From Candidatus Woesearchaeota archaeon (lineage in GTDB: Archaea > Nanobdellota > Nanobdellia > Woesearchaeales > UBA11716): DNA of 32,459 bases. The position numbers and the translations under genes were made by a program. The notes below the pieces were generated by a model. The model made no database searches and was not told the DNA's origin. It saw nothing but the letters and a program-made list of their open reading frames with translations. Within the stretch, counting starts at the first letter, position 1. Every line of letters starts with the position of its first letter. Where the stretch lies: the NCBI GenBank assembly GCA_013329175.1, contig DUKR01000031.1:1-32459 (forward strand), written 5' to 3'. Shown here piece after piece: positions 16,923 through 32,149 of the stretch.

Positions 16923-19109
16923 TCAGATCTCTATAATTTTCCAACTTGACAAGTCATTAGGATTGTATTCGTATTTCTCTTTGTCATTGTCATTGTAACG
17001 CCATGTTCCGTTTACAAAAATAGCAATACCGCCCCAGACTTTCTTATCTTTGTTTTTCTTGAGGTATTTTTGTAATCCTTCGGCTCTTGGCCCTGCTTCT
17101 TTTGCTGTCATTCCGCTTTTTGTGTCAAAGAGACCGGTAGAGCCGTCTGTAAACAGCACGATGAAGTCAACATAGAAAGCTCTCTCAATTCCATTCTCAT
17201 CTGTATATGGCACTGCGAAATATTTTGCTTCTGCTTCGCCGTTCTTGAACCACCATTTTGCTTTTTTTGATTTGTTGAGCAATTCTATAAATCTTCTTTC
17301 CGGCTCGCTTGGTTTCTTTGTGTAAAATGGCTTCATTATTGAGGTTGGCTGTTCTTCTTTGCTGTATCTGCTGTTGTAGCTGATAATAACAGGAATTTCC
17401 CATTTTGGTATCTCTTTCTTCTCTCTCTTTTCGTTGAGTTGTTCAACGACTTCTTTTTTGTAGCGTTCTTTTGCTATGTTGATGGCATCTACGAATGCCT
17501 GCACGTTTTCCTTTCCTAAAACTATTCTTTGGGCTTGCGGATCAAACTTTCTGAGCTTGTATTTTTCTGTGAAAAAGTTGTAAAGTGCTGTTTTCATCCT
17601 ATCGCTTGAATCTGATGGTGCGTATGGTGTGCAGTTATCAGCAATGAATTTATCAAATAACTGCTGTAATTCTGCAAGATTTAGCTGGACTTCAATTTGC
17701 CCTTTTCTTTCAATTTCTCCTAATTGGTCAATGTTTACAATTTTGCCATCTGCGATTATCGGGCTTACTATTCGTGATGGCTGGGCAGTAATTTTCTTCT
17801 GGAGTTTGGTTTCTTCTGCCACTTTCATAAAAATATCGCCAAACTTTCCCGATAGTCTTGTTCGTTCTCTTTGTCTTTTCAGGAAAATTGAGGGCAGATA
17901 GATGTCTTTGTAGAGTTTGCTGTCCCTTTTTGCTTCATAAACAGTAACGTAATCCTTTGCATAATCTTCTGTAATCTCAATATTCGGCAGGTTTGTAAAG
18001 ACATAACCTTTATTCAAATCTTCTTCATTATAATACTTCAATTCAGGCATTCTCATAATTCTGCCAATGGTCTGAATGGTAAAAGTGAAGCTTTTTGATT
18101 CTCTGAAAATAACGAGAATTTGCGCTCTTGGGCAATCCCAACCTAAAGCAATAGCCTGTTTGAAAACCAAAACGTCTACTTCATTGTCGTTTTTGTCAAC
18201 ATTTGCCAGATTGTCGGTTTTTTCTTCTGAAAGCCACACTGCCAGCTTTCCGTTTTCTTCAGTTATCTTGAATTTGTCCTTTAGAATTTTTACAACATCA
18301 TCTTTTTTGTTAATGAGATTACTCTTTTTGTCTGGCAGTTGGATAAGCACAAGAGGGTTTATGTTTGAGCCTTCTTTCTCGTAAAGTTTGGCTACTTCCT
18401 GCCTTTTCTTTAACGCTTGCTCTATAATCAGCTCATCTGAGCTTTTCGTACCTGTTTTTATTTCCAGAAATTCGGGATTAACAGCTATCTCTGACTTAAT
18501 CATTTCTTCAGCTTTTACCTGTGAAATATGCACTTTTTCAATCTCAGAAACGTTCTCTTTTAAGTGGGGAGTAGCTGATACTTCAATCGTAACTTTGGGC
18601 CCGATTGTCTCAATCAATTCTTTTGATTTTTCAGAACTCGCTGTATGATGGCTTTCATCAATGATTAGGATTATTTGCCTTCCTTCTTCCTTTGTATTCT
18701 GTATTAGGGCATTGAGATTATTGTCCTGCTCATTCTCTCGGACATAAATGTTAATGTCTTTCTTGTTTATGCTATGCCAATTTATGAACAAAATCTCATT
18801 TTCCCCTATCTGTCTGTCTTCCAAATCTTCAAAATAAGAGCATTGGATTAACCGGTCATCTTCGTAATATTTCTCTAATTTCTCTTTGCTTTGTTCGTGT
18901 AACATTCTGACAGAAACCCAGACGAAAGAGTATTTTGTATGGTTCTCCTTGACCAATTGTTTAAGCATCTCAGAAACCATAACTGTTTTACCGCTTCCTG
19001 TCGGTGCTTGGAAAATTACAACTTCATTGTCCGGCGTATTCAGAACATTCTGGACTTTTGCTTTAAGACTTTCAACTGCCTTTTTCTGATAATCTCGTAA
19101 GTCTATCAT
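16923..19109 (-). CDS. res: Type III restriction enzyme Res subunit (helicase-nuclease)
   Basis: QAPTGSGKTVM, IIDESHH, SATPH, QTIGRIMRMP helicase motifs; C-terminal FYVDFIVLFTDGSTGLFDTKSG PD-(D/E)XK motif. Confidence 0.93.
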   Translation of the reverse strand: MIDLRDYQKKAVESLKAKVQNVLNTPDNEVVIFQAPTGSGKTVMVSEMLKQLVKENHTKYSFVWVSVRMLHEQSKEKLEKYYEDDRLIQCSYFEDLEDRQIGENEILFINWHSINKKDINIYVRENEQDNNLNALIQNTKEEGRQIILIIDESHHTASSEKSKELIETIGPKVTIEVSATPHLKENVSEIEKVHISQVKAEEMIKSEIAVNPEFLEIKTGTKSSDELIIEQALKKRQEVAKLYEKEGSNINPLVLIQLPDKKSNLINKKDDVVKILKDKFKITEENGKLAVWLSEEKTDNLANVDKNDNEVDVLVFKQAIALGWDCPRAQILVIFRESKSFTFTIQTIGRIMRMPELKYYNEEDLNKGYVFTNLPNIEITEDYAKDYVTVYEAKRDSKLYKDIYLPSIFLKRQRERTRLSGKFGDIFMKVAEETKLQKKITAQPSRIVSPIIADGKIVNIDQLGEIERKGQIEVQLNLAELQQLFDKFIADNCTPYAPSDSSDRMKTALYNFFTEKYKLRKFDPQAQRIVLGKENVQAFVDAINIAKERYKKEVVEQLNEKREKKEIPKWEIPVIISYNSRYSKEEQPTSIMKPFYTKKPSEPERRFIELLNKSKKAKWWFKNGEAEAKYFAVPYTDENGIERAFYVDFIVLFTDGSTGLFDTKSGMTAKEAGPRAEGLQKYLKKNKDKKVWGGIAIFVNGTWRYNDNDKEKYEYNPNDLSSWKIIEI

Positions 19110-20764
19110 TTGAATATCCTCTTGTAAACGTTTAATATGACTGCTGGAATTGGCCTTAATTCAACCAGATCAGCGACATCCTCAAATTCATCTTCTCTTG
19201 CACTTTCATCAAGAGAGAAAACATAAACGACAAACTGCTTTTTTAATTTTTTAGCTTCTTTTTTGAATGGCTCAATGCCCTCATCATCGTAAATTATTCC
19301 TAAATGTTTGTCTTGACCATTCTTGAAAATTTTGAAATTCTTGCCATCCATAACCTCATCAAAACAATCTTCTTTTAAGCAAAGCATTTCTGTTGATTTA
19401 TCAACCATTTTATGCTTATTAGTATCGGTTTGTTCAGCATCAACGAAGCCGGTTTTATAATACTTCAAACCGCCGGGCATATTACTTACTAACTTACCTT
19501 TAGATTCTTTTTCTAAATTTTGAATTACCTTTTTAACACGAGGATAGCATATATCCTCGGCAATTTTATCACCTGAACCGTTATTGTTTTCATTGTTTGT
19601 ACAGAGTATAAACTTTCTAAATCCATTATCCTCCAAATTGTACTCTGTTACAGCTTGCCCAGTAGTACCCGAACCCGCAAAAAAATCAAGAATAATACTC
19701 TTTTTTGTTGATGATAATTCTACTATTCTTTTAATTAGTGAAACAGGTTTCGGATTATTAAATTTTTTAGCACCTAACAATTTTTCTAATTCCTGAGTTC
19801 CATTAGTAGTTGTCCCAACGTCATCCCAAATTGATTTTGGGGCTAACCCTTTACCCTCCGCATCAGTTAAATAGCGTTTTAGTTGTGGTTTTGAATTTCC
19901 AGATTTTCCAAATATTATTCTACCCTCTGCAAAATATTTTTTATATTCTTCCTCTGTTGTTCTCCAATGCCTACCTTTAGGAGGCATAAAAATTTTTCCT
20001 GTTTTAGGATTTTTTATTGGATATTCTAAATTTGGTCGTATTTCTGGAGCATCAAATGGATCAGCAGTCCATGGACCTCTTGGATCATTATCGGAATTAA
20101 GAAATTTACCATTATTTACGCCTTTTAATCTAAATTCATGCTTATGTTTTTGTAACCACTTCATGCTTTTTGCATAGAATAATGTGTGATTGTGATTCAG
20201 AGAAACAATTGTATCGCTTGAAACTGATTTTCTTGAATTCCAAATAATATCAATAACAAAATTTTCTTCACCAAAGATATCATCACATAATAATTTTAAT
20301 TGTGCAACTTCAGTATCATCAATAGAAATAAAAATCATTCCTCTTATCGACATTAAATTTTTTGCTAATTTCAATCTCTTAGACATGAATGAAAGCCATT
20401 TACTATGTCTGTAAGTATCCTCTCTGTCAATTATTTTATCGTTATAAACGAAATTGTCTCCAGAGCCACGATTATACGGCGGATCAATGTAGATAACATC
20501 AACAGTCCCCTTATGCGTATAATTCAAAACTGAAAGAGCGTGATAATTATCGCCCTCTATCAAAATATTTACTTGCTTTTTGTCATCCGTTTTAATTTCC
20601 TTTTTTGTATCTTCTTCTAGAATAGGCAATTCTGTTTCGCATCTTTTTGCAACAGTTTCAGGCTTTTCTTCCCAGACTATTCCATATTTCTTTCTTTTTT
20701 CAACTTTCTTTAACTCTCTAACCAATTCTTCTTTTGACCAATTGGAATAATCTTTTTTTGCCAT
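19106..20764 (-). CDS. mod: Type III DNA methyltransferase Mod subunit
   Basis: VDVIYIDPPYNRGSGDNFVYND (DPPY), ILDFFAGSGTTGQAV (FxGxG), WDDVGTTTNGTQEL; ATGA overlap with res. Confidence 0.95.
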   Translation of the reverse strand: MAKKDYSNWSKEELVRELKKVEKRKKYGIVWEEKPETVAKRCETELPILEEDTKKEIKTDDKKQVNILIEGDNYHALSVLNYTHKGTVDVIYIDPPYNRGSGDNFVYNDKIIDREDTYRHSKWLSFMSKRLKLAKNLMSIRGMIFISIDDTEVAQLKLLCDDIFGEENFVIDIIWNSRKSVSSDTIVSLNHNHTLFYAKSMKWLQKHKHEFRLKGVNNGKFLNSDNDPRGPWTADPFDAPEIRPNLEYPIKNPKTGKIFMPPKGRHWRTTEEEYKKYFAEGRIIFGKSGNSKPQLKRYLTDAEGKGLAPKSIWDDVGTTTNGTQELEKLLGAKKFNNPKPVSLIKRIVELSSTKKSIILDFFAGSGTTGQAVTEYNLEDNGFRKFILCTNNENNNGSGDKIAEDICYPRVKKVIQNLEKESKGKLVSNMPGGLKYYKTGFVDAEQTDTNKHKMVDKSTEMLCLKEDCFDEVMDGKNFKIFKNGQDKHLGIIYDDEGIEPFKKEAKKLKKQFVVYVFSLDESAREDEFEDVADLVELRPIPAVILNVYKRIFK

Positions 20765-21530: not shown

Positions 21531-21962
21531 ATGGCAGATGCACATCTCAAGGAAAAGCTCGCAACCGCAACAGGCAGCATATCGGGCGCTGCAAGCATTA
21601 TGGGCTCCTGGCAGGTCTGCCACAGCATCTGCCTTGGGCTTATCGCACTACTTGGCATCATTGGCATCACCATCACAGGTATGCCCTTGCTTTTCCTCAA
21701 TAAGATTGCCATTCCGCTATGGAGCATAGCAGTCATCCTTCTGGGAGTTACCTCTTATTTGTATGTTACAAAAAAGTGCATATCAAAGAATCTTATCCTG
21801 CTCAACACAGGACTCATTATTGCTGGCATTCCCTTCCCAAAAGTCAGCAGCTTCCAGCCCTTATTCTGGATTATCGGAGGGATGGCCGCAATCTTTGGCC
21901 TGACGCTCTTCATCAGGGAAAAGCTTGACAAGAAAAAATGCAGGAGGCACCATCATGGATAA
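21531..21962 (+). CDS. Small polytopic membrane protein with His-rich C-terminal tail
   Basis: 4-5 hydrophobic segments; C-terminal KKKCRRHHHG; within copper operon. Confidence 0.75.
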   Translation: MADAHLKEKLATATGSISGAASIMGSWQVCHSICLGLIALLGIIGITITGMPLLFLNKIAIPLWSIAVILLGVTSYLYVTKKCISKNLILLNTGLIIAGIPFPKVSSFQPLFWIIGGMAAIFGLTLFIREKLDKKKCRRHHHG

Positions 21963-22434
21963 CAACAAGGAAACATACCTGCTCTACGGGATTGTCGCTC
22001 TCGCAATCATCGTCCTCGCGTACACTGGCTACAGCGTCATTGGGCAGGGCATAATGCAGAAAGACAAGTACATCCAGACTGTCCCAATAACAGGAGAAGA
22101 TTCCCCCTACCAGGCAGTCTCTACAGGAAGCACAGGAGAAGGCGAAGTGCAGATAGAACTCAGCCCTCATGAGCCGCAAGGCGGAAGGCTTGCTATTGAC
22201 ATAGCAGCAAACACCCATTCTGTTGACCTCTCGCAGTTTGACCTGAAGGAGATAACCGCATTGCAGATAGGAACAAAGCAGTTCAGGCCTATTGACGCGC
22301 CAACTCTTTCCAGCCATCATGCCTCAGGCACTCTTACATTTGATATCGGCTCAGCTAAAACTGACGCATTCATTGTCATTATCACAGGCATCCCAAAGGT
22401 TGCAACGCGATCTTTCAGATGGGATGGAACATAA
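21955..22434 (+). CDS. Membrane-anchored extracytoplasmic protein, unknown function
   Basis: N-terminal TM then ~120 aa beta-rich domain; overlaps the preceding gene by 8 nt. Confidence 0.7.
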   Translation: MDNNKETYLLYGIVALAIIVLAYTGYSVIGQGIMQKDKYIQTVPITGEDSPYQAVSTGSTGEGEVQIELSPHEPQGGRLAIDIAANTHSVDLSQFDLKEITALQIGTKQFRPIDAPTLSSHHASGTLTFDIGSAKTDAFIVIITGIPKVATRSFRWDGT

Positions 22435-22467
22435 AGAAGACTCCCAAAAGAGAGAGGAACAAGAACA

Positions 22468-22947
22468 ATGAAACGAACAATACTGTTAACTGCCCTGCTT
22501 GCAGCGGGCATTCTCATCCTTGCCGGCTGTGCGCAATCAGGCACCAACACAGGCGCAAGCGTAGCGGGGAAATCATCAGGCACCGCGATTACCATTTTCA
22601 AATCAGACTCCTGCGGCTGCTGCGGAGTGTACACTAAATACATGGATAGGGAAGGCTATAACGTAACCATCAATACTGTCAGGGACACCACAGCAATAAA
22701 GGAGCAGTACGGCGTCCCTGCTGCATTGCAGAGTTGCCACACAACTGTGGTAGGCGATTATGTTGTTGAAGGACATATCCCAAGTGAAGCGGTAGAAAAG
22801 TTGCTTTCTGAAAGGCCTGACATCAAAGGCATAGCGTTGCCGGGAATGCCATCAGGCTCTCCAGGTATGCCTGGCTCTAAAACTGGCGAATGGACCATCT
22901 ATGCGCTCAACAACGACGGAAGCTATGACGTGTTCATGAAGGTATGA
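22468..22947 (+). CDS. DUF411 metal-binding lipoprotein
   Basis: ILAGC lipobox; ITIFKSDSCGCCGVYTKYMDREGYNV, YGVPAALQSCHTTVVGDYVVEGHIP is DUF411. Confidence 0.93.
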   Translation: MKRTILLTALLAAGILILAGCAQSGTNTGASVAGKSSGTAITIFKSDSCGCCGVYTKYMDREGYNVTINTVRDTTAIKEQYGVPAALQSCHTTVVGDYVVEGHIPSEAVEKLLSERPDIKGIALPGMPSGSPGMPGSKTGEWTIYALNNDGSYDVFMKV

Positions 22948-23465
22948 GGATGAAGCTCAAGCCTCTTTTTGTACTGGCAATGGCCTCCCTGCTGTTCGCA
23001 AGGATAGCAGATGCCCATTGCCCCCTTTGCACTATAGGCGCAGGCGCACTAGCCGGAAGCGCAGCATGGCTTGGCGTCAGCAAGTCAGTGATAGGCGTAT
23101 TCATCGGAGCATTTGCTGTCTCCACGGGCTGGTGGATGGCAAGGCTCATTAAAAAGAAGGTCATCCCCTACCAGATGCCAGCAATAATTTTGGCATCATA
23201 CCTCCTGACCGTTCTGCCGCTCATTCCTCTGCTGAAAGATTATCATCCCCTCTACCTTTCGTGGCTTGGCACCTATGGCACAACCTACGCCATTGACGTC
23301 TTTTTGCTCGGAAGCATAGTTGGTGGCATCATCGTCTGCATCACACCCTGGCTTTCCGCAAAGCTCACTGCTCTGCGCAAGGGGAATCTCATTCCGTATC
23401 AAGGTATCAGCTTAACCTTTGGCTTGCTTTTCATTGCAGGTATCATCATGCAGGTGGTGGCATAA
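22944..23465 (+). CDS. Polytopic membrane protein with exported AHCPLCTIGAG motif
   Basis: Signal-like N-terminus followed by ADAHCPLCTIGAGALAG; 4-5 TM segments. Confidence 0.75.
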   Translation: MRMKLKPLFVLAMASLLFARIADAHCPLCTIGAGALAGSAAWLGVSKSVIGVFIGAFAVSTGWWMARLIKKKVIPYQMPAIILASYLLTVLPLIPLLKDYHPLYLSWLGTYGTTYAIDVFLLGSIVGGIIVCITPWLSAKLTALRKGNLIPYQGISLTFGLLFIAGIIMQVVA

Positions 23466-23466
23466 T

Positions 23467-23982
23467 ATGGGAACAAACGGCGCAGCTAGGGAACTGCAGG
23501 AATGGATGGAAAAGCTAAAGAAGTCAAAAACAAATGAAGCAGACCTTTCCCGCGACGAAGACTTAAGCATTGCTATTATGAACCTTATCAGCCTTGAGGA
23601 GCATTTCTATTTCACCGCAATGAAGACAGGCAACGGCTCGTACCTTGAGTTGCTTGATGAAGTAAGAAAGAAGCGCATTCAATTCCTCAAAAAGATTGTC
23701 AGGGATCCAAAGGGTGAGGAATGGTGCATAAGTAAGCATCTCCTTGCAGCAAGCATGCGCTTATTTGAAGTAGGCACAAAAGAATTGTCGGTAAAGGGAA
23801 AAGATGCAGCAATGCCATTTTTTCAATCAGGCTTTGACCTGTGGTCCATGTTTTTTTGCATTAATCTTGGGATGATAGAAGCCAAAGACATGAATCAGGA
23901 AGCGCTTCAGAAAGAGCATACCAGAACAGGAAAGCTCTCGGAAATGATGAAAAATATCATCAACTGCTGCAAAGAGTGGTAG
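23467..23982 (+). CDS. Helical protein of unknown function
   Basis: Same-strand operon position; ATG 23467 is preferred over ORF start 23419, which overlaps the preceding gene. Confidence 0.65.
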   Translation: MGTNGAARELQEWMEKLKKSKTNEADLSRDEDLSIAIMNLISLEEHFYFTAMKTGNGSYLELLDEVRKKRIQFLKKIVRDPKGEEWCISKHLLAASMRLFEVGTKELSVKGKDAAMPFFQSGFDLWSMFFCINLGMIEAKDMNQEALQKEHTRTGKLSEMMKNIINCCKEW

Positions 23983-24050
23983 CAGGGCGTTATTGGCAAG
24001 TTTGCGGCATCAGTTTATCAATAGCAAAAAAGGACACTGGTGATGCGACC

Positions 24051-24680
24051 ATGATGAACACAACAAAAAAAATAATGGCATTACTTGCACTAACGATGCT
24101 CTTTGCAGGCATTACGCTTGCTATAGAGAGCGATGGGATGCACGGCTCCTTTGAGCAGGCTGAGGCACTGATTAACGCAAAGGCCACCTGCTCAAGCCTT
24201 ACCGATGAGCAACTGGAATTGATTGGCGACTACGTGATGGAGCAGATGCATCCCGGAGAAGCCCATGAAGCGATGGATGCTATGATGGGCGGCGAGGGTT
24301 CTGAAAGGCTTCGGCTTGTCCATATCAACATGGCACGATCATACTATTGTGGAGATGCGCAGGCAATGGGCACTGGCATGATGTATAGCGGCTATGGAGG
24401 AAACCGTGTAGGGATGATGGGTTCTGCAATGATGGGGCAAAACTACCCGGCAGCAGGAGACAGTGGATATGGCATGATAAGCCAGTACGGTGCATATCCT
24501 GGTGTCCAACAGGGATACAGCGGCATGGGTTCGATGATGAATGGAGGCTCCATGATGTACGGCTACAGCTTGTGGTATCCGCTTCTGCAGCTTGTGTACC
24601 TTGCTCTTGCAGCATTGGTTTTTGGCGCCATCTTCTGGTGGACGTACAGGCTGATAGCAAGAGAGAAGAAAAGAAAGTAA
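24051..24680 (+). CDS. Exported Met/Gly/Tyr-rich putative copper-binding protein with C-terminal TM
   Basis: Signal peptide; YVMEQMHPGEAHEAMDAMMGGEG; repeated MMG/YSGMGSMM segments; C-terminal TM with RLIAREKKRK. Confidence 0.75.
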   Translation: MMNTTKKIMALLALTMLFAGITLAIESDGMHGSFEQAEALINAKATCSSLTDEQLELIGDYVMEQMHPGEAHEAMDAMMGGEGSERLRLVHINMARSYYCGDAQAMGTGMMYSGYGGNRVGMMGSAMMGQNYPAAGDSGYGMISQYGAYPGVQQGYSGMGSMMNGGSMMYGYSLWYPLLQLVYLALAALVFGAIFWWTYRLIAREKKRK

Positions 24681-24684
24681 TTGA

Positions 24685-24809
24685 AAGTCTCATTATTATA
24701 GCAAAGTGCAGTAATAATGAAACTTTTAGATATGCACTTTGCTATACTAGCAGAAAACACAAATGTTCGATAATTAATGTTTTCTGCTATTACTGCACTT
24801 TGCTATAAG
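24685..24809. repeat. Compound inverted-repeat element with alternative stems
   Basis: 24697-24717 is perfectly complementary to 24789-24809 (21 bp); 24749-24760 to 24779-24790 (12 bp); 24698-24711 to 24734-24747; 24685-24699 to 24713-24727 (one mismatch). Confidence 0.92.
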
Positions 24810-24835
24810 GGCAATGCAGGAGTGACGAGGGTACC

Positions 24836-25498
24836 ATGCTCAGCGACGACTATGCCTACGGAAACTGGATTATTGTGGTTAGCCTGATAGCTCTTGCCCT
24901 CTTCTTCATCACAAAATACATTCCCTTAAGGACCAGGTTTGAGAAGCGGACTGGAGGAGTGCTGCTTGCCTTCTTTACGGCACTCTTTGCCGAGATGTAT
25001 GGCATTCCGCTGACAATTTACCTTCTCTCCTCGTTTTTTGGCGTGCAGATCCCCTTCACCCACCAGTATGGCCATCTCCTTGCCTATGCATTCACGTTTA
25101 TCGGCATCCCCATCCTCTATGGGTGGATATTCGTGATGGCAGTAAGCACCATCATGCTGCTCATAGGAATAGGCCTCATCATCAAGGGATGGAAGGCAGT
25201 CTATCATGCCAAAGGAAGCATGGTGACCACAGGCATCTACGCAAAAATCAGGCATCCTCAGTATACAGGGATTTTCATTATCATTACTGCATTCATCATC
25301 CAGTGGCCTACGTTAATTACCCTCATCATGTACCCTTTTCTTGTGGTGATGTACTACAGGCTTGCGCTTCGTGAGGAAAAAGAGGTGATGCTGCGTTTTC
25401 CTGCCAGATACTCAGCTTACCAGAGGAAAACGCCAATGTTTTTCCCTTCACTGCTGAAGCAGAAAATCAGGAGACGACTACCCAATGCAAAAGCCTGA
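24836..25498 (+). CDS. Isoprenylcysteine carboxyl methyltransferase-like (ICMT/PEMT) membrane protein
   Basis: GSMVTTGIYAKIRHPQYTGIFI...YRLALREEKEVMLRFPARYSAYQRKTPMFFP. Confidence 0.88.
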   Translation: MLSDDYAYGNWIIVVSLIALALFFITKYIPLRTRFEKRTGGVLLAFFTALFAEMYGIPLTIYLLSSFFGVQIPFTHQYGHLLAYAFTFIGIPILYGWIFVMAVSTIMLLIGIGLIIKGWKAVYHAKGSMVTTGIYAKIRHPQYTGIFIIITAFIIQWPTLITLIMYPFLVVMYYRLALREEKEVMLRFPARYSAYQRKTPMFFPSLLKQKIRRRLPNAKA

Positions 25499-25578
25499 TG
25501 GATGCACCATCACCAAAGGAGAAAAAGAAAAACGCATGACCGTGCGCCTTTGCACCATGCTTGAGGAGTGTGAATGCA

Positions 25579-25830
25579 ATGAAGAAAACTGTTGCCGTAA
25601 AAAAAAGCCATAACCACAGCAATCACCTGCTGCTGATGGCACTTTGCTGCATAGCTCCGATACTCATCGCAGCCCTTGCTGTCTATGCCTTTGGCCTCAA
25701 CAGGAGCTATCTTGCCTGGGCAGCTCTCATCGGCTGCATGCTCATGCACGTCTTCATGATAAAGGGCTGCCATAAGGAAGAAGAAGCAGGCATGAATAAA
25801 AACAGCAAAGAGCAGGAGAAGTGCCACTGA
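25579..25830 (+). CDS. Small His/Cys-containing two-TM protein
   Basis: KKSHNHSNHLLLMALCCIAPILIAALAVYAFG...GCMLMHVFMIKGCHKEEEAG...EKCH. Resembles small copper-island membrane proteins such as DUF2933. Confidence 0.65.
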   Translation: MKKTVAVKKSHNHSNHLLLMALCCIAPILIAALAVYAFGLNRSYLAWAALIGCMLMHVFMIKGCHKEEEAGMNKNSKEQEKCH

Positions 25831-25857
25831 GTATGGTGGCAATAAAAGAAGTGCACA

Positions 25858-28113
25858 GTGGCTAAATACCCTAGCAATAAAGTGACTCTCGCACTCAAAG
25901 TGAGGGGTATGGACAACTCGCACTGCGTCCACATCGTAGGCTCTGCCCTCGACAGGCTTGAGGGCATCATTGACAAAAAGCTTTCAGCAAATGAAAAGGC
26001 AGCAATTACATTCAACCCCAAAATAGTTACTGCAGAGCGCATCAGGCAGATAATCAATGACGCTGGATACGATACCTATGAGGAAAGCACTGGCATTGCT
26101 GACCGGGAAAAGGAAGACCGCAAAAAAGAGATTCAGAGCCTGAAGAAAAAGACCTTTATCTCAGCAGTGCTTGGCCTTCCCCTTCTCTATCTTGCGATGG
26201 CTCGCCATATTGGCCTTCCCACCATTGAAGACATATCCCTTCTGGCTATCATCCAGTTCCTCTTTACAACGCCCATCATGCTCCTTGGCTATCAGCTCTT
26301 CACTAAGGGGTTTCGTTCCCTCATCAAGGCAAAGACAGCAAACATGGACACCCTCATCGCTATTGGAACAGGCGCTGCCTACGCCTACAGCCTCATAGCA
26401 TCAGCTTTCATCCTTTCAGGAAGCACCCTCTTTGGGAAAGAGGATATCTACTTTGAAGTTGCCGGTCTTCTTATCGTCTTCATCCTGCTTGGCAGATACT
26501 TTGAGGCAGTCGTTAAAGGCAGGACATCTGAGGCCATTAAAAAGCTCATGGGTCTTGCGGCAAAAACTGCCATCGTCATCAGGGATGGAAAAGAGCAGGA
26601 AGTGCAAATTGACGCTGTCATTGTCGGCGATGATGTCGTTGTCAAACCAGGGCAGAAGATTCCGGTTGATGGCGTTGTGCTTTCTGGCCATTCGTCAGTT
26701 GACGAGAGCATGGTGTCAGGCGAAAGTATCCCTGTCGAAAAGACAAAGGGAAGCAAGGTCATCGGTGTAACTATCAACAGGACAGGGGCATTCACCTTTA
26801 GGGCGACAAAGATAGGAAAAGACACCATGCTTGCCCAAATCATCAAATTGGTCGAGGATGCGCAGGCAAGTAAGGCTCCCATCCAGAAGCTTGCCGATAC
26901 CATCTCAGCCTATTTTGTCCCTGTCGTCGTTGGCATAGGCATCATTGCAGCGATCACCTGGTATCTTCTGGGCATGGGCTTTTTGTTCTCTTTCACTATA
27001 CTTATCGCTGTCCTGATTATCGCCTGCCCCTGCGCTCTTGGCCTTGCAACACCCACTGCCGTCATGATGGGCACAGGCAAAGGAGCAGAGCATGGCATCC
27101 TCATCAAGAGTGCTGAGGCCCTTCAGAAGACAGGAAAGCTCTCGGTAGTCATATTTGATAAGACCGGGACGATCACCAAAGGGAAACCCGAAGTGACTGA
27201 CATCGTCAGGGCAGGGACAGGAAGGCTTGATGAAAAGGAATTGCTCAGGCTTGCGGCAATCGCCGAAAAGAAGTCAGAGCATCCTCTGGCCGAAGCGATT
27301 CTTGCAAAAGCAAAGCTCCTCAAGCTGGATGTTCCTAACCCTTCATCATTCAATGCTGTTGCTGGCCAGGGTATTGAAGCAGCATCAGGGAGAGCCACAA
27401 TCCTGCTTGGCAACAGGAAGCTCATGCAGACAAAGGGCGTTCCCATAGATGGCATCAAAGGGCAGCTTGCAGGGCTGGAGCGTGAAGGAAAGACCGCAAT
27501 GCTCATAGCAGTCAATGGCAAAGCAGCAGGCGTCATTGCAGTCGCTGACACTATCAAAGAGCAGTCAGCAAAAGCTATAGCGAATCTTCAGGCAATGGGC
27601 ATTGCAACCTACATGCTCACCGGCGACAATGAGACTACTGCCAGGGCAATAGCACGTCAGGCAGGCATCCAGAATGTCCTTGCAGAAGTCATGCCTCAGG
27701 ACAAGGAAGAGGAGGTCAAAAAGCTTCAGGAGAAAGGCGAGGTTGTAGCAATGGTTGGCGACGGCATCAACGATGCTCCCGCATTGACGCAGGCAGATGT
27801 GGGAATTGCAATTGGCTCGGGAACTGATGTTGCTATTGAGTCAGGCGACATCGTTCTCGTGAAGAATGAACTGTCCGACGTAGTTTCCGCTATCAACCTC
27901 AGCCGCTACACTCTCAAGAAAATCAAGCAGAATCTCTTCTGGGCCTTCATCTACAATATATTAGGCATACCAGTTGCAGCAGGCATCCTCTATCCCTTCA
28001 CTGGGTTCCTCCTGAATCCAGTCATTGCAGGAGCTGCTATGGCCTTCAGCTCGGTATCGGTTGTTGCAAATTCACTGATGATGAAACGATATAGTTTAGG
28101 TAGGGGGAGGTGA
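25858..28113 (+). CDS. copA: Copper-type P1B ATPase (CPC), with degenerate N-terminal HMA domain
   Basis: [50 protein letters not shown]-terminal HMA has GMDNSHC instead of GMxCxxC. GTG start. Confidence 0.95.
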
Positions 28114-28284
28114 AATCCAAAAATAATCGCAGAGGTTCATTTAGGGAAAGCCTTTCTAAACGTTTTAAACTATAAATTTCAGCTTTTTAAACGGTTGGCA
28201 AGGCAATTTACAATACGAATGATATTAATACTACCCGCTGTTACAAAATGAAAAAAAAATAGAGAGGCCCCAGAGGGATTACAG

Positions 28285-28494
28285 ATGGCAAAAAAAACAC
28301 TTAACCTGAGCATAAAGGGCATGCACTGCCCAAGCTGTGAAGCGCTTATCAAGGACATTGCAGGCGACTGCAAGGCAGACGTCAAGTCAATCTCCCACAA
28401 GACCGGCAAAGCAGAGGTATCTATAGAAGAAAAAGACCTGCCAGCATTCAAAAAAGAGATGGCAAAAGAAGGCTATACGGTGGAACAGGTATGA
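28285..28494 (+). CDS. copZ: HMA-domain copper chaperone
   Basis: 69 aa, LSIKGMHCPSCEALIKDI, ...AKEGYTVEQ. Confidence 0.9.
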   Translation: MAKKTLNLSIKGMHCPSCEALIKDIAGDCKADVKSISHKTGKAEVSIEEKDLPAFKKEMAKEGYTVEQV

Positions 28495-29402
28495 CAACAA
28501 CAATCTATGTCCCTGACATCGAATGCGATTCCTGTGTCAGGCTTATCGGACGCAGGCTTGCTGGCAAAGGCATAACAGGCTACACCATAACAGGAGATAT
28601 CCTTCTTCTTGAAGATTCCGAGAAGGCAAATGACGTCATCAAGGAAATTAAATCACTAGGCTTCCGGGCATCAACAAGCCCATTTGACAGGAAGTCTTTC
28701 AAAGAGCGCTTTCGGGACTTCAGGGAAAACAAAGAGAAATACCAGACAGAGAGAGAAGGCATTGAGACAGCCTTAGGCGTCTTTGGCCTCCTGGCAGCAA
28801 TAACCATCGTGGCCTATGTAGGCTTTCTTAACAGAATCCCAAACTTCCTGCATAATTACGGCTGGTGGCTCTTCTACCTGCTTATAGCAATCACAGCAAT
28901 AGGCGCAGCTCTCTGGCACTACACAGCTTACCGGGCAAAATTCACCTGCATGGTTGGCATGATGGTCGGCATGACCTTTGGCATGCAGACAGGGATGATG
29001 CTTGGCGCAATAATTGGTGCGACAAACGGCTTCTTCATAGGTTCAATGATTGGCATGCTCATCGGAACAGCAGCAGGCGTAGTAACAGGCAAATGCTGCG
29101 GTGTCATGGGCATCATGGAAGGCATGATGGCAGGCGTCATGGGCGGCACCATGGGCCCGATGATTTCGGTCATGATGTTCTCAGACCATCTGCTTTGGTT
29201 CATGCCCTTCTTTATGCTCATAAACATCGTCATCATCATCGGCCTCTCCTATCTGCTCTTTGAGGAGGTCGTTGAGCAGAATAAGGAAATCATACGAAAG
29301 CCTGCTGACTTTCTTACCGTAGCGTCGCTTTCCATCATTGCAGCGTTCCTTCTTGGAGCGCTCATGCTCTACGGGCCAACATCAGCATTGCTCACATTTT
29401 GA
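28491..29402 (+). CDS. HMA domain fused to Met-rich glycine-zipper membrane domain
   Basis: N-terminal YVPDIECDSCVRLIGRRL HMA-like; TM segments; 12 consecutive Gxxx tetrads (residues 156-203) followed by GVMGIMEGMMAGVMGGTMGPM. Confidence 0.85.
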   Translation: MTTTIYVPDIECDSCVRLIGRRLAGKGITGYTITGDILLLEDSEKANDVIKEIKSLGFRASTSPFDRKSFKERFRDFRENKEKYQTEREGIETALGVFGLLAAITIVAYVGFLNRIPNFLHNYGWWLFYLLIAITAIGAALWHYTAYRAKFTCMVGMMVGMTFGMQTGMMLGAIIGATNGFFIGSMIGMLIGTAAGVVTGKCCGVMGIMEGMMAGVMGGTMGPMISVMMFSDHLLWFMPFFMLINIVIIIGLSYLLFEEVVEQNKEIIRKPADFLTVASLSIIAAFLLGALMLYGPTSALLTF

Positions 29403-29413
29403 GGTGAAAAACA

Positions 29414-29941
29414 ATGAAACAAATCATACGATACAGCGCCTTTGGCGGCGCAACTCTTGCCATCGCTGCTATCCTGTTCTTCTCATTTACAGCATCAGGA
29501 ATAGCAACTGTAGGTGCAGTCACAGGAAACGCAGTCAAAGATGCAGTAAAAAGCCAAGTATCAGCTAACGGTATTCAGGAAGTCGCGCTTTCCTATAAAA
29601 ATTATCAGTATCTCCTTGAGCCATCCACGCTTACAAAAGGCGTCCCCGTCAGGATGACGGTTGATCTTGCCACGGTCAATGGGTGCCTGCGTGACATTGT
29701 CATTGCCTCTTTTGGTGTGCGAAAGCGCGTAGCAGAGGGCGACAATATCATAGAATTCACCCCGGACAAGGCAGGAACCTTCACCATCGCCTGCTCCATG
29801 AACATGGGCCGCGGCACCTTTGAAGTTGTCGAGCCTGACGGTACGCAATCTTCATATCAGGAGACAGCTCCATCAGTAGCAGCAGGAGCTGCAAGTTGCG
29901 GCGCATCCGGAAGCGGCTGTGGCTGCGGTGGAATGAGATAA
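29414..29941 (+). CDS. Cupredoxin-like exported protein with Cys/Gly tail
   Basis: Signal/TM; VRMTVDLATVNGCLRDIVIASFGV...IIEFTPDKAGTFTIACSMNMGRGTFEVVEPDG; C-terminal SCGASGSGCGCGGMR. Confidence 0.85.
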   Translation: MKQIIRYSAFGGATLAIAAILFFSFTASGIATVGAVTGNAVKDAVKSQVSANGIQEVALSYKNYQYLLEPSTLTKGVPVRMTVDLATVNGCLRDIVIASFGVRKRVAEGDNIIEFTPDKAGTFTIACSMNMGRGTFEVVEPDGTQSSYQETAPSVAAGAASCGASGSGCGCGGMR

Positions 29942-29965
29942 TCAGTCTCTTTTGAGCCGTTGAAA

Positions 29966-32149
29966 ATGAAACACACAACACTCAACATCACAGGCATGCA
30001 TTGCGCATCCTGCTCGGCAGTCATCAACAGGGCGCTTAACAAAGCAGAGGGCGTAACAAAGGCAAACGTCAACATTGCAACGAACAAAGCGACCATAACA
30101 TACGATGAAAAGAAGATAGATATTCCCAGAATCATTGCAGCAATAAAAAATAAAGGCTATGGTGCAGGCGTTGCTGACGGCAAGGACAATACAGAGGCTC
30201 AGCAGGAGAAGCAGAAGCTTGAGATAAAGGCGCTCATGTTCCAGTTCACGATGGGATGCATCCTCTCCCTTCCCATCCTCATTCTTGGCATGTTCTTCAT
30301 GCAAAGCCCTATCCCCTATCAGGACTTCATCATGTGGACGCTTGCCACCCCTGTTCAGTTCATCGTCGCTGCGCCTATGTACCAGAGTGCATGGCAAGCT
30401 TTGAAAGGAAAATCAGCAAACATGGATACCCTGATTGTGATGGGAACTTCAGCAGCCTACTTTTACAGCCTCTATGCCCTTTTTTCAGGCAATGGCTACC
30501 TTTACTTTGAGGCAAGCGCGGTCCTCATCACTGTTGTCGTCCTTGGCCGATTATTGGAAGCAAAAGCAAAAGGAAAGGCAAGCGACGCCATAAAGCGCCT
30601 CATAGGCCTTAAGCCAAAGACTGCCCTTGTGATTCGCAATGGCAGGGAGGAGAATATAGCGGTTGATGAGGTCATGGAAGGCGACCTTATCATCGTCAAG
30701 CCAGGCGAGAAAGTGCCAGTTGATGGCATCATCACTGAGGGCAATTCAGCAATAGACGAATCCATGGTTACTGGCGAATCGCTTCCTGTAGAGAAGAAAA
30801 AGGGTGATGCAGTGATAGGCGCAACCATCAATAAGCACGGCTCATTCACCTTCAAAGCGACAAAGGTAGGAGCAAACACTACACTTGCCCAGATCATCAG
30901 GCTTATAGAGGAAGCGCAGGGAAGCAAGGCTCCTATCCAGCGCTTTGCCGATACCGTCTCAGCCTATTTTGTCCCCGCAGTGCTCGTCATTGCAGCCCTG
31001 ACCTTCATAGGATGGATGACTTTCGGCAATAAAGACCTCAGTTTCGCTCTTATAACTACCGTAGCAGTCCTCGTCATTGCCTGCCCTTGTGCTTTGGGCC
31101 TTGCCACCCCTACCGCAATCATGGTAGGCACGGGAAAAGGCGCAAGGGAGGGAATCCTCATCAAAGGAGGTGAGGCACTGGAAAAAGCCCATAAGATAAA
31201 GCACGTCATCCTGGATAAGACAGGGACAATAACCAAGGGCAAGCCTGAAGTAACTGACATCATCCCTTTAGGCAAACAGGCAAGAAAGGCAGTGCTTGAG
31301 ATTGCAGCATCCATAGAGAAAGGAAGCGAGCATCCCTTGGCTGAAGCGATTGTTGCAGAAGGAAAAAAAGAGGGCATTTCCCTCAAAAAGGCTTCGGCTT
31401 TCAGAGCAATCCCTGGCCACGGCATCACGGCAAAGATTGCAGGAAAAGCCTATCACCTTGGAAACGCAAGGCTTATGAAAAAGCTTGGCGTGCCGCTCAC
31501 CAGATACCAGCAGGAGATCCATGCCCTTGAGTCTGACGGAAAGACTGCAATGCTCCTTGCCAAAGGAAAATCCCTTCTTTGCATCATTGCTGTCGCTGAC
31601 ACCATCAAGGAAAGTTCACCTGATGCCATAGCGCTCCTGCACAGGATGGGCATCAGGACATACATGATAACTGGCGATAATGAGCGTACGGCAAAAGCCA
31701 TAGCAAAGAAGGCAGGAGTAGATACGGTTTTTGCAGAAGTGTTGCCTGAAGACAAGGCCAAGCATGTGCAAAATCTTCAGAAAAGCGGAGCCGTTGCCAT
31801 GGTGGGCGACGGCATCAATGATGCTCCAGCGTTAGCCCAGGCAGACATTGGGATTGCCATGGGCTCAGGGACTGACGTTGCCATGGAAACAGGCGACATC
31901 GTCCTCATGCAGGACGACCTGGTGGGTGTCGCAAAAGCCATCAGGCTTAGCAGGCTCACCATGGCAAAGATCAGGCAGAACATGTTCTGGGCACTGGTGT
32001 ACAACACCTTAGGGATTCCTGTTGCTGCGGGCCTTCTCTATCCCTTCACGGGCTGGCTGCTTTCGCCTATCATTGCAGGGGCAGCTATGGCATTGAGCAG
32101 CGTTTCGGTTGTGAGCAATTCATTGCTATTGAGGATGAAGAGGTTATGA
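29966..32149 (+). CDS. copA: Copper-type P1B ATPase with intact HMA domain
   Basis: [66 protein letters not shown] track start is 29960; ATG 29966 is preferred. Confidence 0.95.

Follow-up and report, generated by a model that had tools for sequence, protein, structure and literature searches.

An inverted pair of hairpins between metal-resistance genes of a Woesearchaeota archaeon, best called a REPIN/PATE-like non-autonomous mobile element

The window, meaning the whole stretch of 32,459 nucleotides analysed here from a Candidatus Woesearchaeota archaeon, contains a metal-resistance region (21531-32149) with two heavy-metal P-type ATPases (25858-28113 and 29960-32149), an HMA protein and a DUF411 protein. 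Genes for a helicase and a DNA methylase, at 16923-20764, appear to resemble a type III restriction-modification pair. The segment under study and its two neighbours have the following layout:

23976-24680, + strand: upstream ORF, a neighbour outside the element, Met/Gly-rich, without Pfam match
24682-24695, - strand: left remnant, apparently from an older copy in inverted orientation, TGAAAGTCTCATTA, matching TAAAAGTTTCATTA at 12 of 14 positions
24696-24792, + strand: two-hairpin element, very probably mobile, complete, 97 bp, TTATAGCAAAGTGCAG...TGTTTTCTGCTATTA
24696-24746, + strand: hairpin unit 1, stem 24697-24710 / 24733-24746 (14 bp), 22-nt loop
24747-24792, - strand: hairpin unit 2, stem 24748-24759 / 24778-24789 (12 bp)
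24793-24808, - strand: right remnant, apparently from that older copy, CTGCACTTTGCTATAA, matching at 16 of 16 positions
24836-25498, + strand: ICMT-like methyltransferase gene (Pfam PF04140), the downstream neighbour outside the element

The inverted repeats of the segment are real and well above chance, with folding z scores of -8.5 as DNA and -7.4 as RNA that none of 200 shuffles equalled. All four stems named in a preliminary description of this DNA are present, each one base lower than the coordinates given there: the 21-bp repeat (24696-24716 / 24788-24808) and the stems of hairpins 1 and 2 are perfect, whereas the 15-bp stem exists as 24684-24698 / 24712-24726 with 14 of its 15 positions paired. 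The sequence TGCACTTTGCTATA occurs twice on the + strand, at 24733 and 24794, and once more on the - strand at 24697. The mutual exclusivity of the two conformers is likewise real, folding as RNA giving -45.3 kcal/mol for the conformer with the 21-bp stem against -41.8 kcal/mol for the one with hairpins 1 and 2.

The segment was compared by blastn with its own genome (1.56 Mb in 142 contigs, 86% complete), and many further copies with unrelated flanks were observed, an outcome which the preliminary description had said would favour a mobile element over a switch. What these copies always share is the 97 bp at 24696-24792, in full, shortened or extended, and three copies (on contigs C52, C66 and C133) are 99-100% identical, that on C66 being identical and that on C133 99%. 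With a covariance model (R1), for which 14 sequences from 11 genomes were used, at least seven near-complete copies were detected in the own genome, along with several longer or truncated ones, and 24696-24792 received the top score of that genome (111.9 bits). By sequence alone, matches were found in 17 of 383 relatives within the class. A 79% identical element is present in an independent record, a Candidatus Woesearchaeota MAG (L084). Within the order, R1 matched 83 of the 295 genomes sampled, from 62 of 197 genera, a count that includes the own genome. Since one copy may match R1 on both strands and up to 14 matches were scored per genome, the 47 of these 83 genomes with at least three scored matches are taken to hold at least two copies each. 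Single weak matches may be chance; the relatives compared are MAGs, and copy counts are at-least figures. An exact 19-mer in Nitrosocaldus (L085), without a model match, was set aside as chance, and a scan of IMG/VR with exact patterns for viral carriage gave no matches. No relevant paper on MITEs of Woesearchaeota or DPANN archaea was found in a literature search of incomplete coverage.

The stems are conserved through compensatory changes. Of the stem cells in alignment A1, 93.6% are paired, compared with 27-49% in slid controls, a percentage that leans towards the structure, which was derived from the same sequences; the double changes are stronger evidence for that reason, with both sides changed in 12 of 26 pairs and 48 double-change cells against 14 in shuffles, a number reached by none of 500 shuffles. 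The two hairpins abut each other. Hairpin 1, matched by the R2 model, and hairpin 2 in reverse complement, matched by R2 on the - strand (60.7 bits), align as one homologous unit (alignment A2), with model matches on both strands. In this unit TWATAGYARAnnnCA is followed by a loop that contains TAAT..GAAC and by the complementary arm (consensus TWATAGYARA-nnn-CA...GAAC...TG-nnn-TYTRCTA). In the unit alignment 94.7% of cells are paired and G-U pairs occur in only 3 of 357 cells. More G-U is usually expected in structural RNA, and this scarcity suggests that the palindrome is kept at the level of DNA. Several subfamilies of the element are present per genome. Some copies from three genera contain extra small hairpins inside the loop of hairpin 2, giving elements of 130-173 bp:

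L037, 1518-1690: copy with extra loop-2 hairpins
L180, 1402-1549: copy with extra loop-2 hairpins
L181, 1460-1607: copy with extra loop-2 hairpins
L222, 1597-1729: copy with extra loop-2 hairpins
L223, 1689-1818: copy with extra loop-2 hairpins

Two copies, on C11 (L039, 1494-1666) and C83 (L041, 1487-1583), have the common outer repeat GGTGAATTGCGCTAG ... TTGAATAATTTTCCGCATTTCACC; the C83 copy is without the 72-bp loop-2 insert of the C11 copy and its hairpin-1 loop is inverted, either a real loop inversion or an assembly effect.

A recent burst was seen in genome G562, where 24 copies, 100% identical over 94 bp, occupy 24 different sites, and genome G507 holds about 40 copies, at least 11 of them identical among the subset read. 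At two G562 loci, congeners keep the flanking genes and show no R1 match there: the spacer before a gene read as spt4 from its sequence is element-free in G457, G471, G500, G544 and G553, and the site on C36 in G471, G500, G544, G553 and G567. At the C36 site, the one locus where the uninterrupted site can be read, and that approximately given the roughly 80% identity of the congeners at this place, the joined G562 flanks align across the junction with the element-free relatives without a duplicated stretch, and no target duplication was found in the flanks of the 24 identical G562 copies either. The flanks were also checked for insertion 3' of a fixed tetra- or pentanucleotide, and a one-sided preference emerged for G562, namely T at +3 in 23 of 24 (p=1.4e-9) and a purine at +1 in 23 of 24, together with C at -1 in 11 of 19 for G507.

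The window copy apparently landed within an older copy in inverted orientation, about 30 bp of which would survive. When 24696-24792 is deleted and one TTA is kept, TGAAAGTCTCATTA is brought up against CTGCACTTTGCTATAA, and the joined flanks correspond in register to TAAAAGTTTCATTATTACTGCACTTTGCTATAA, the terminal sequence of an element in reverse orientation, at the 12 of 14 and 16 of 16 positions listed above, the left register match having a chance of about 3e-6 (one position). A single nesting event that left both remnants would explain both the perfect 21-bp repeat with its mutually exclusive stem, through the right remnant, and the 15-bp stem, through the left one, and the switch-like geometry would then be a by-product of nesting. 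Against this stands the shortness of the 30-bp remnant, and a local template switch could yield the right arm, but not the left match. A third arm within 60 bp occurs in the window copy alone, 1 of the 123 copies examined. Two G507 copies (L168 and L174) are also flanked by partial sequence of their own type, which may be an assembly effect.

Most copies (110 of 123) lie outside ORFs of at least 90 aa, and by an ORF rule 58 are placed between tandem, 26 between convergent and 15 between divergent genes. The copies show no consistent association with genes for copper or other metals, and recurrent neighbour proteins near copies across genomes formed small, uninformative clusters only, of housekeeping types such as HhH-GPD glycosylase, phosphoesterase and mannosyltransferase. 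In three genomes a BRO-N domain protein (55-74% identical) lies beside or close to an element copy, but its position is not consistent and the association may be coincidental:

L107, 651-1559: BRO-N protein and element copy
L114, 2241-3095: BRO-N protein and element copy
L209, 6179-7036: BRO-N protein and element copy

A long autonomous version of the element was sought in the own genome and four relatives with the unit model, and no gene enclosed by two single units was found, the search turning up four-hairpin and longer-loop forms. One four-hairpin form (L207 about 2287-2471; G225 C14:199786-199970) has two other hairpins between two element units. In the own genome, a stretch of about 810 bp (C124:11437-12244, L031) is bounded by the left and right ends of the element and consists of internally repeated sequence, parts of which recur beside another copy (L044); no transposase-like ORF was seen in it.

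The preliminary description had proposed an RNA switch or attenuator, and a copper-responsive device steering the downstream gene via the two exclusive stems could draw on conformers at most 3.5 kcal/mol apart as RNA and on the position between two same-strand genes of the metal-resistance region. This reading is rejected because the third arm is unique to the window copy and the element is absent at orthologous loci: the orthologues of the ICMT-like gene in G350, G411 and G557 are element-free, though G411 carries copies elsewhere. Unrelated genes adjoin the other copies, no T-tract terminator was found, and Rfam gave no credible family at gathering or relaxed thresholds, so that a switch is extremely improbable. 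The same DNA had also been likened to a MITE or to an IS200/IS605-type hairpin end, a comparison which holds in that the element is dispersed, mobile and ORF-less, bears a hairpin at each end and leaves its target unduplicated, and fails in that the hairpins are unlike the ends of the IS200-type element compared. An ordinary MITE of a DDE transposon, with TWATAGC as imperfect terminal inverted repeats, would fit termini that are short, imperfect and inverted in a multicopy, ORF-less element, but it appears improbable, as the 24 identical copies and the one uninterrupted orthologous site are without target duplication, and covariation keeps full hairpins in each half, which is unexpected for simple terminal repeats.

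The hairpins at both ends, the lack of target duplication and the one-sided flank preference resemble single-strand (HUH-type) transposition, and they also speak for a miniature IS200/IS605 derivative of PATE type, moved in trans by a Y1 TnpA, as does the presence of Y1 genes in some element-rich genomes, among them G562 with its recent burst. That derivation is possible but rather unlikely, since Y1 genes were found in 12 of 25 element-rich genomes and in none of the other 13, including G225 and G118 (95-97% complete), the flanks gave no clear sign of a strict target of 4-5 nt, and the termini of the IS200-type copies in G562, the one element compared, with ends delimited by comparing two copies, are unrelated to the element. 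The own genome has only broken Y1 fragments of IS200 type, each interrupted by a stop codon within the match (C34:11824-11949, C73:2-148 and C51:2-100). An R1 search of 27 Y1 loci gave weak matches only, the best of them, at 31 bits, lying some 1.4 kb away from the gene, and a Y1 transposase partner was discarded, with neither linkage nor common ends. An archaeal counterpart of the bacterial REPINs, with an unrecognised or since-lost helper other than Y1 TnpA, is a reasonable possibility that falls somewhat short of an even chance: the inverted pair of one hairpin unit, about 97 bp long and mostly extragenic, with compensatory changes and several subfamilies, has the same design as REPINs, inverted doublets of one palindromic unit (PMC3116915), but no RAYT gene flanked by the element was found among the 27 Y1 loci searched with R1, the units start with TWATAG in A1 and A2 and no 5' GTAG/GGAG tag was found, and REP systems are described as bacterial, the REP-type Y1 proteins of a published survey being bacterial and the IS200-type subclass alone being seen in archaea (PMC6006769).

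As the obvious enzymes failed the tests made, in a helper search that covered one family (Y1), a trans-mobilised element recognised by its hairpins, with a putative helper enzyme, is preferred. With dispersal, a recent burst in a relative, absence at orthologous loci of congeners, no target duplication and conserved stems all observed, 24696-24792 is very probably a non-autonomous mobile element consisting of an inverted hairpin pair, mobilised in trans and nested in an older inverted copy. Such an element would spread through the genome without duplicating its target, a putative enzyme supplied in trans would recognise the hairpins, most likely as single-stranded DNA, and the window copy would have landed inside the older inverted copy, whose two remnants would give the 21-bp repeat and the alternative stems. 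Against this reading, no transposase gene was found with the ends of the element, none of the Y1 genes lies beside a full-strength element, and the G562 IS200-type ends show no resemblance.

The element is best called an archaeal REPIN/PATE-like non-autonomous mobile element, which would work like a REPIN or a PATE without necessarily belonging to either. Like REPINs (bacteria; REP doublet, BIME; RAYT/TnpAREP), it is an ORF-less inverted pair of palindromic units of about 100 bp, mostly extragenic, with many copies and compensatory stem changes (PMC3116915), but its units are about 48 bp with stems of 12-14 bp and a large conserved loop, and its host is archaeal. The palindrome-associated transposable elements (PATEs) of Haloquadratum walsbyi are likewise archaeal and transposase-free, with palindromes near both ends and no target duplication (PMC3119063), whereas they are described without terminal inverted repeats and share their palindromes with IS605-type elements; the halves of the present element are homologous in inverted orientation and the compared IS200-type ends do not match. 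The small mobile repeats (SMRs) of the same archaeon, compared by description only, share terminal inverted repeats, the absence of target duplication, an enigmatic mobilisation and insertion into other mobile elements (PMC3119063), but a double hairpin does not figure in the description used. The present element also differs from a further group, in a likeness by description only, in being longer and non-organellar. That group, the double-hairpin elements of fungal mitochondria, has two adjacent hairpins, mobility and no coding capacity.

It is conceivable, though doubtful, that this double-hairpin family, widespread in a DPANN order, travels as single-stranded DNA and owes its movement to an enzyme other than RAYT or IS200 TnpA, a hitherto unrecognised system in which the REPIN design evolved independently. 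REPIN-type doublets have been described as bacterial and tied to RAYT enzymes, and a family of REPIN-like elements that occurs in roughly one in four genomes sampled from a DPANN order and has expanded recently, without any RAYT being found, would show the design to arise or persist in the absence of RAYT. The missing mobilising enzyme becomes a concrete target, and annotators are warned that switch-like alternative stems can result from one mobile hairpin landing in another.
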